Source of the DNA: Methanobrevibacter ruminantium M1
GTDB lineage: Archaea; Methanobacteriota; Methanobacteria; Methanobacteriales; Methanobacteriaceae
DNA: 64,000 nucleotides
Assembly (NCBI RefSeq): GCF_000024185.1
Contig: NC_013790.1
Location: 1,759,501 to 1,823,500, forward strand
Reading direction: 5' to 3'
Shown here piece by piece: positions 4,924-7,509 of this stretch (positions are counted from its first letter, which is position 1; every line of letters begins with the position of its first letter). The notes below the pieces were generated by a model. That model saw nothing but the letters and a program-made list of their open reading frames with translations, ran no database searches and was not told the origin of the DNA. A program made the translations under genes and the position numbers.

Positions 4924-6135
4924 CTATAATCTATAACCGGATTCCTTGTGTATTTTAGTATCAAGTCCTTCGATTTCAGTTTTCTCATCAACTCTGATTC
5001 CCATGGTCTTATCAAGGATCTTAGCAAGTATGAAGCTTATAGTGAATGCATAGACAATGGTTACAATTACACTTATTACTTGAATTGTGACTTGACCTGG
5101 ATTTCCATAGAGCAAACCTGCTGCACCTCCGACTGCTGGAACTGCAAATATACCGGTTGCAATTGCTCCCCAAATACCTGAAAGACCGTGAACTCCAAAT
5201 ACATCCAAAGCATCGTCGTAGCCGAATCTTGTCTTTAAGTAATAGATTGCAAAGTAGGATACGAATGTGGTTACAAAACCAATGACAATAGCTGCTGGAA
5301 CATCAACGAATCCTGCTGCAGGGGTGATTGCAACAAGTCCAGCCACTCCACCGGTGATTGCCCCTAACATGGTTGGCTTTCCGACTTTTACAATATCTAT
5401 AATTACCCAAGTGATAAGTGCTGTTGCAGCTGCAACGTTTGATACAAGGATAGCTGATGCTGCAAGTCCGTTAGCTGCAAGGGCAGATCCTCCGTTGAAT
5501 CCCATCCATCCGAACCAAAGGAATCCTGCACCGAGAACTGAATATCCTAAGTTGTGTGGCAAAAGGGAAGTGTCTTTTCTTCTTCCGAGAACAAGGGCCA
5601 ATGCAAGAGCTGTTACACCAGAGTTAATATGTACAACTGTACCTCCTGCAAAGTCCAGGGAACCCATCTGCATAAGGAATCCTCCTCCCCATACCCAGTG
5701 GGCAATCGGTACATAAACAAGGGTGACCCAAGCAATGATGAAGACTATCCATGCTGAGACCTTCATCCTTCCGACGATTGAACCTGAGATAAGGGCCGCT
5801 GTAAGACCGGCAAAGGTTAATTGGAACACAATAAACAATATTGTAGGGATGGTTCCTGTAAGATCTTCAATTCCGATTCCGCTCATGAAGAAATGAGCAG
5901 GTTGAGCTATCAAACCGCTTATACTGACATCTCCAAAGGCAAATGGGTATCCATATACAACCCATATTATGCTTGCTATGGAAAATGCAATAAAAGTCAG
6001 AAACATTGTATTTAAGACATTTTTACGTTTTGTTAAACCACTATAAAAGAAAGCTACTTCAGGGATGCTCATTAAAAGAACAAGGATTGTTGCAATGAGC
6101 ACCCATGCAGTATCTCCTGCACTAAGTACTACCAT
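4924..6135 (-). CDS. amtB: Ammonium transporter Amt
   Basis: This 403-residue protein has about 11 membrane helices. It carries the pore histidine motifs AHWVWGGG (about residue 145) and [10 protein letters not shown] (about residue 315), and the FYSGL and [16 protein letters not shown] blocks of Amt/Rh channels. It imports ammonium into the cell. With glnK downstream it forms a nitrogen-responsive operon. I took the ATG reading [11 protein letters not shown], which matches the family N-terminus. A TATA-like sequence lies about 35 bp upstream, but the clear regulated promoter lies much farther up, at about 6685-6753. Confidence 0.95.
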
Positions 6136-6684
6136 ATTATCATTTTCTCATATAATCAATTAAAAAACTATAAATTTAAATTTTAATATTTTTCTCATAA
6201 ATCAATAAAAACTTAGAAATTTAAATTTTAAACTTTGTTTTAAGTAAATAAATATTTTTTATAATTTGTTCATTTTTTCTAAATTTCAATAATCTAGAAT
6301 ATACATTTTCAATTTCAATCTAAAAGATCATGAAAAGCAACTATTTTTCAGTTTTATTGAGATTAAATATTTGTGATTTATAAGTTAAATTTTAAGGATT
6401 AATTTATTTTCAATAGCTGCCTTTCATGAGGATTAGATTTTAAAATCTAATTTCTATAGGCATTTTCATATTTTTAATTTTATTCAAAAATTTATTTTAT
6501 TTCAATAAATAATCAAAAATTTTATTTATTTCAATAAATGAACTAATGAAAAGTTTGTTAAAAAACACCTAAATTTTTTTATTAATATCTTTAATTTTAG
6601 ACATTCTTTTAAAAAGACAAGCCTTAAATAAAGAGATTGATTTTTAAAAGAACTTTAATTTTACCTGATATTAAGTATTTGTCT
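6136..6684 (-). ncRNA. Candidate long leader or small RNA upstream of amtB
   Basis: The 550 bp between amtB and the NrpR-type promoter contain no credible ORF. At 6418-6462 a nested inverted repeat occurs: TGCC with GGCA outside, and the perfect 20-mer palindrome ATTAGATTTTAAAATCTAAT inside (6432-6451). A transcript from about 6715 would carry it, either as the amtB-glnK leader or as a separate nitrogen-regulated small RNA. I cannot define a 3' end. Confidence 0.3.
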
Positions 6685-6753
6685 TATGTCGGAAAACGGC
6701 TTCCGACTTCCGACATATAGTATTTAGTTTCTAATCATATATAAACCTTTTGG
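6685..6753 (-). promoter_or_regulatory. NrpR-type operator with archaeal promoter
   Basis: The minus strand has BRE CCAAAAGG (6753-6746) and TATA TTTATATAT (6745-6737). The predicted start near 6715 falls inside a palindrome. Its core is GTCGGAA-N6-TTCCGAC (6688-6707), which contains GGAA-N6-TTCC, the operator of the methanogen nitrogen repressor NrpR. A further TATGTCGGAA arm lies at 6708-6717 on the minus strand. The position over the start site fits repression in ammonium. The first gene downstream is amtB, 580 bp away. Confidence 0.7.
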
Positions 6754-7089
6754 AAAAATGGATAAGAATAAGCAAAATACCAAATTGAGCAAAAATAAAC
6801 AATTAATCTTAAAAATGAATAAAAAATAGACAATTTAGAAAAATAAGAATAATATTGATTAAGTTAATTAAATAAAAAATAACTAAAATCACCATAATAT
6901 ATAAATACTAATTAATATTAAAATTATAATTGTATTATTGATATACAAGAAATATTAATAAAAAAATAAAATTTTAATTGATTATTGATATGAACAATTT
7001 AAAAATAATCAAATAACTAATCAAATATCGATATACAACAAATATTAACTAGAGTATTTTTAAATAAATTAAAATTTATAGGTGGAAAC
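6754..7089. other. Intergenic AT-rich DNA
   Basis: No gene is visible. It should hold the promoter for the secreted protein at 7090. Confidence 0.5.
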
Positions 7090-7509
7090 TTGAAATCAGA
7101 TAAACGGGCTAAATTTGCCATATTCTTCTCAATTGCAATCCTTGCCTTGGGACTGAGCAATATTGCAGCTGTATGGACTGGAGACTTGATAAGCGGTTCA
7201 CTTCCGGTAATCAATGAAACAGATAAGTTGATTGCCTTGGACAATGACAATTTCTCTCCAGCAAGTTTGAATACAGTTTATGAAGAAAAAAAGGTTGTAG
7301 AAGTAGTTAATGACACATCTGATGCAAACGATACTGATTCCACTCCGAACAATGCAGATTCCAATACGGAAAGTGATGATACATCAAATTCAAACAATAA
7401 TAACAATAATCAAAACAGCAATGGCAACGGCAATCAAAATACAAATCCAAATAACAATGCCGAGCCTAGCTCTGGAGGATCTGCAGGTCAGACAGAAACA
7501 GAGGAATAG
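7090..7509 (+). CDS. Asn-rich, membrane-anchored secreted protein
   Basis: The frame starts with TTG, five bases after a GGTGG ribosome site, and encodes 139 residues. A basic N-terminus (MKSDKRAK) precedes one hydrophobic helix (about residues 8-30), which is a signal anchor. About 45 ordered residues follow, then a low-complexity Asn/Ser/Asp/Thr tail with long Asn runs (residues 75-139). I do not recognise a family. Such short anchors with Asn-rich tails are typical of Methanobrevibacter surface proteins. Confidence 0.65.
   Translation: MKSDKRAKFAIFFSIAILALGLSNIAAVWTGDLISGSLPVINETDKLIALDNDNFSPASLNTVYEEKKVVEVVNDTSDANDTDSTPNNADSNTESDDTSNSNNNNNNQNSNGNGNQNTNPNNNAEPSSGGSAGQTETEE

Follow-up and report, generated by a model that had tools for sequence, protein, structure and literature searches.

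A predicted NrpR-type promoter with a three-half-site operator and a long leader upstream of amtB-glnK in Methanobrevibacter ruminantium M1

We analyzed a 64,000-nucleotide stretch of the Methanobrevibacter ruminantium M1 genome (the window; its positions on the single contig of 2,937,203 bp are 1,759,501-1,823,500), in which the minus strand carries, in this order, a BRE/TATA element (6753-6738), a palindrome (6713-6689), a stretch free of open reading frames, amtB (6135-4924), and glnK (4844-4506). This arrangement is very probably an NrpR-repressed promoter of the amtB-glnK operon, followed by a long leader that would have grown behind it, and would thus show where ammonium uptake is switched by nitrogen in M. 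ruminantium M1. The amtB promoter is in itself ordinary; what is worth following is the design of its operator and a gene-less promoter of the same type in a sister genus.

The BRE/TATA element consists of CCAAAAGG and TTTATATA. Scored as CCAAAAGGTTTATATAT, with the TATA box starting at 6745, it reached 16.3 with a matrix made from 46 promoters of relatives (its own promoter was left out), a value found at no other position on either strand of the 64-kb window. The transcription start predicted from the position of the TATA box is 6715 (± about 3), and the strong promoter starting there that a preliminary description had proposed is thus borne out as a prediction. The distance between promoter and operator is also fixed, as the gap from TTTATA to TCGGAA was 24, 25, or 26 in all 44 loci with the N13 operator described below. 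A matrix scan of the leader found no other promoter of comparable strength. Against the reading preferred here, amtB might be transcribed on its own by way of a weak TATA-like site at 6252, whose score of 7.2 places it among 30 positions of the window that do as well.

A GGAA-N6-TTCC core (GGAAAACGGCTTCC, 6691-6704, minus strand), the only one in the window, sits at the predicted start inside a longer palindrome (6689-6713), just as previously described. This NrpR-type operator contains three half-sites, TCGGAA at 6713-6708, TCGGAA at 6706-6701, and TTCCGA at 6694-6689, which form an N6 and an N13 palindrome; the operator is conserved upstream of amtB in relatives. The bare GGAA-N6-TTCC motif is not above chance, either in the window (1 found versus 1.32 expected) or genome-wide (80 sites versus 111 for the reversed control pattern). 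Unlike the bare motif, the long palindrome plus the TATA box is above chance: TCGGAA-N6-TTCCGA without mismatches occurs once in the 2,937,203 bp, and TCGGAA-N13-TTCCGA once in the genome versus none for the control, in both cases at the amtB site. Among the 137 genomes of the family, 52 harbor the N13 operator versus 5 for the reversed control, and a TATA box plus CGGAA-N6-TTCC is found in 95 versus 10 for the control. The source genome is not a match in the latter count, its perfect N6 pair lying farther from the TATA box.

The promoter was assigned to amtB-glnK because relatives have the same module in front of amtB, often at 58-65 bp. In the window, amtB encodes an ammonium transporter of 403 amino acids (PF00909; TIGR00836 above cut-off) and is indeed, as had been noted, the next gene, its start at 6135 lying 580 bp downstream of the predicted transcription start. 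It is followed by glnK, encoding a P-II protein of 112 amino acids (PF00543) and presumed to be the second gene of the operon; the same order is seen in relatives. When 381 bp covering the promoter and the upper leader were used as a query, relatives were matched through the first 70-90 bases, that is, promoter and operator, while the other matches were scattered and AT-rich; amtB was present in 14 of the 30 loci retrieved. The gene is found in 16 of the 19 genomes of the genus, which yielded 18 distinct upstream regions (one interrupted amtB, present in both L078 and L081, was counted once). Thirteen of these carry the N13 operator in perfect form and one more with a single mismatch; a simple N6 palindrome is found in two, and two are more divergent. 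The four regions that lack the N13 form all come from a more distantly related type of amtB, with an identity of about 70%. The TATA-operator module upstream of amtB extends across the genus and its sister genera, at 58-571 bp from the start codon. The distance between operator and amtB is 58-65 bp for some species and 100-350 bp for others; with about 570 bp, M. ruminantium has the longest leader of the 18 regions, a point against the preferred reading. Outside the genus, the operator of G010 lies some 650 bp before amtB. The orthologous promoters that stand so close to the gene support the long amtB leader.

Two observations were made on the flanks of this region. The sequence ATGAGAAAATGATAAT directly before amtB (6136-6160, minus strand) is found again in many other members of the genus, and a possible upstream frame of three codons lies within it. 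The gene divergent from amtB (7090-7509, plus strand) encodes a protein of 139 amino acids that is hydrophobic near its N terminus and of low complexity in its tail; it had no Pfam or NCBIfam match. Related proteins are encoded beside amtB throughout the genus, and more weakly similar ones occur in other genera. No papers on transcription starts or on amtB in Methanobrevibacter were found in the literature searched.

The presumed 5′ leader of amtB (6136-6715, minus strand) would be transcribed through to amtB, judging from the relatives. No open reading frame of at least 50 amino acids was found in 6136-7016, and at this cut-off the earlier statement that no frame lies between promoter and amtB holds. 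Repeat comparison of the leader revealed a 45-bp tandem duplication adjoining the amtB start (6143-6231) and a 29-bp tandem duplication (6481-6539), both on the minus strand. The nested inverted repeat pointed out before (6418-6462, minus strand) is real and forms a weak hairpin (z -2.1; 8 of 200 shuffles as good). It competes for the same bases with a hairpin that spans 6328-6429 of the same strand and pairs 6412-6429 with 6328-6345 in a stem of 18 bp (z -4.7; not found in relatives), which makes the two mutually exclusive. Between close species, leader alignments score far above chance. When the M. ruminantium leader was compared with ten further leaders from the genus, however, its best alignments were equaled by 8 and 10 of 200 shuffles, and a search of the genus with this leader gave no specific match, only weak AT-rich ones. 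The conserved structure that was to be sought in 6400-6715 among related species was therefore not found, and a conserved RNA within the leader was rejected, as no alignment was above chance. A mobile element in the leaders of relatives was also rejected: an insert common to four close species, present as two adjacent copies in one of them, had strong matches only in their amtB leaders, the remaining ones being weak and AT-rich. Nor is a CCTT loop motif common to the leaders (19 occurrences in 6,007 bases of long leaders versus 29 in 10,024 bases of upstream control).

The two exclusive folds, nested repeat and 18-bp stem, could make the leader a riboregulator governing amtB, a reading that we consider quite unlikely. 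The stem is above chance, and the leaders of the genus fold somewhat better than upstream controls (p 0.002, Mann-Whitney, 12 leaders versus 10 controls, with six other controls of z -4.72 to +0.81 left out). In addition, a hairpin of 26 pairs in the amtB leader of genus g6 is kept in two species, with one two-sided change, two one-sided changes, and one break. However, covariation from two sequences carries no statistical weight (253 of 500 shuffles), one ordinary intergenic control folds better than the leaders on both strands (z -4.0 and -4.7), the leader is not conserved, and leaders of 58-65 bp manage without such folds.

The preliminary description had left the choice between a long leader and a nitrogen-regulated small RNA. 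The leader stands, whereas the small RNA is unsupported at this locus. Such an RNA would end before amtB, with amtB transcribed separately or by read-through, and it is very unlikely despite the long ORF-free stretch with its hairpins and the two sister-genus species in which an NrpR-type promoter precedes a conserved non-coding element. The leader does not align to relatives beyond chance, a bacterial-type scan found no terminator-like site in it (T-runs are five or six long at most), Rfam gave no match in the window at gathering score, and the relatives with short leaders have the promoter next to amtB. The amtB-glnK promoter with a long leader thus remains the preferred reading, and the case would illustrate that a promoter which is ordinary in other respects can acquire a long untranslated leader.

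The sister-genus species are G009 and G006 of genus g6, in which a second module of TTTATATA plus three-half-site operator faces an ORF-free stretch, some 570 nt long in locus L207, that reaches up to a convergent gene. This NrpR-type promoter and the two conserved hairpins behind it (L207 about 750-1125, G009:C22; L211 about 475-850, G006:C29) constitute a candidate for an NrpR-controlled non-coding RNA, which itself would lie at about 798-1125 of L207 and about 523-850 of L211. The only small frame of at least 12 codons in L207 is 15 codons long, and the longest one in L211, of 26 codons, is not common to L207. In the two species, the first hairpin has z values of -8.6 and -8.3 and the second of -3.5 and -4.3, and both contain the loop motif AAATTCCCTTTGTTT. 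The hairpins are conserved about as well as coding DNA, with 98/110 (89%) and 90/106 (85%) identical positions between G009 and G006, compared with 84-92% in three neighboring genes and with 50% and 55% in the intergenic sequence before and behind the hairpins. A search of Rfam with the two candidate loci gave one weak, chance-level match outside the candidate. Two findings speak against NrpR control in G006: no NrpR domain was found in this genome, and the third half-site of its second operator is damaged, reading TTTCGA. The protein encoded upstream of the candidate resembles, by eye, the one encoded divergently from amtB in the window.

In both g6 species, the first hairpin shows similarity to the G009 amtB leader (0 of 200 shuffles as good), and the G006 amtB leader is similar to the G009 hairpin (0 of 200 shuffles). 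The similarity of the G006 leader to the G006 hairpin is not clear (19 of 200 shuffles), and none was clear between the first hairpin and the amtB leaders of G007 and G008. We regard it as possible, with considerable doubt, that the amtB module of NrpR promoter plus leader can live alone as a regulatory RNA. If so, the Methanobacteriaceae would own an NrpR-controlled non-coding RNA unrelated to sRNA154 of Methanosarcina mazei, and long amtB leaders such as that of M. ruminantium may be the source of the g6 RNA. In any case, the gene-less promoter is a candidate, open to testing, for the control of a non-coding RNA by NrpR beyond the Methanosarcinales; we know of no other in the part of the literature covered.

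A prediction of NrpR control presupposes an NrpR gene, and the source genome has one, an open reading frame of 564 amino acids with an HTH_12 winged helix and two NRD1_2 regulatory domains, which resembles structure 3nek and adjoins a glutamine synthetase gene. The other glutamine synthetase gene of this genome (glnA) is preceded by TTTATATA and then TAGGAAGGAAACTTCCTTCCGA, an architecture like that of amtB. Indeed, amtB and glnA were the only genes with a well-scoring and suitably spaced TATA box in a survey of 79 of the 80 GGAA-N6-TTCC sites in 150 site-orientations (60 stretches plus 17 further loci; the site at 2900584 was left out), which gave one further, weak case with the TATA box farther off. 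The glutamine synthetase gene that adjoins the NrpR gene has GGAAATATATTTCC about 150 bp upstream (C1:505754; L013, L082) and no good TATA box there. In relatives, the TATA-operator module also precedes glnA, named by its sequence and its match to the NrpR-adjoining glutamine synthetase gene of the source genome. The N13 operator is further seen upstream of a nifH-like gene (L208 about 650-674, G133; L209 about 300-324, G135), which we take by eye from its sequence to be nifH. The NrpR gene, the glnA architecture, and the relatives' amtB, glnA, and nifH together support the NrpR-type operator and promoter that had been proposed.

A regulator other than NrpR could own the operator, as NrpR binding is a prediction and as three genomes that have the operator (G006, G027, and G034) are among the 18 of 137 in which no NrpR match was found; many of these 18 assemblies are incomplete, but G006 is rated 99% complete. 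We nonetheless hold this to be highly improbable: the consensus and the targets amtB, glnA, and nifH fit NrpR, which was matched in 119 of the 137 family genomes.

The half-site arrangement was compared in a spacing set of 62 loci, of which 44 have the N13 form, a frequency due in part to selection, as most loci were chosen for that form; the middle half-site was not selected for. Among the 30 distinct N13 operators, a middle half-site lies N6 from the right outer half in 11 and N6 from the left outer half in 18, both are present in none, and neither is present in one. Thus, in 29 of these 30 operators the two outer halves are accompanied by one extra half-site, on the left or on the right, never both. 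The one operator without a clear middle half-site (G064:C2:176322-176346; L161, L205) has a minus-strand TATA box and is aimed at the 3′ end of an opposite-strand gene; a plus-strand gene begins some 300 bp away. That the palindrome serves instead as a stabilizing 5′-terminal mRNA hairpin deserves hardly any credence. Located at the 5′ end predicted for the transcript, it does fold as RNA, with -17.8 kcal/mol and a z value of -6.4. However, the inner RNA pairs form in only 18 of the 30 distinct operators, and the pattern is better read as DNA half-sites, since 29 of the 30 retain a middle GGAA/TTCC half-site at N6 and the motif stands at glnA and, in its N13 form, at nifH as well.

With an NrpR operator as the preferred reading, NrpR would block initiation under ample ammonium by occupying the three-half-site palindrome that overlies the start, and would be released when nitrogen is short; 2-oxoglutarate is the known NrpR signal in other systems. 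Transcripts starting at about 6715 would then comprise an AU-rich leader of some 570-580 nt followed by amtB and glnK. The length of the leader would reflect growth, partly by short tandem duplications, with no conserved RNA held in it. The mirror-image operator with three half-sites provides a concrete, testable design for the seating of NrpR on DNA.

More than one palindrome per promoter is likewise reported, to judge from the title of Lie et al. 2005, for the nif promoter of Methanococcus maripaludis, which is said to have two operators. These are reportedly separate, whereas the two half-operators of M. ruminantium overlap and have a half-site in common. No paper on NrpR operators with such half-sites was found, most subscription journals lying outside the literature searched, and the NrpR papers on the inverted repeat and on Methanobacteriales describe inverted repeats, with further half-sites unmentioned in their accessible portions. 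As far as the available parts of the reports go, the same GGAA-N6-TTCC motif stands before ammonium transporter genes, in organisms with NrpR, among the NrpR-operated promoters of M. maripaludis (nif, glnA, glnK-amtB; PMC2723118 for the motif upstream of glnK-amtB) and Methanobacterium formicicum BRM9 (amt1, amt2, glnA, nifH; PMC4335013 for the motif upstream of amt1, amt2, and glnA). M. ruminantium differs by its three half-sites, its overall N13 palindrome, and its leader of about 570 nt, as against one N6 pair, BRM9 being compared by its described motif only. In M. mazei, the promoter of sRNA154 has, in the excerpts available, an NrpR-type operator, GGTA-N6-TACC (PMC3177094), and the amtB promoter is similar to it in this respect. 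However, sRNA154 is described as an intergenic transcript of its own that is conserved among Methanosarcinales (PMC3177094, PMC9765008), whereas the amtB module would serve a protein-coding operon and its leader is not conserved.
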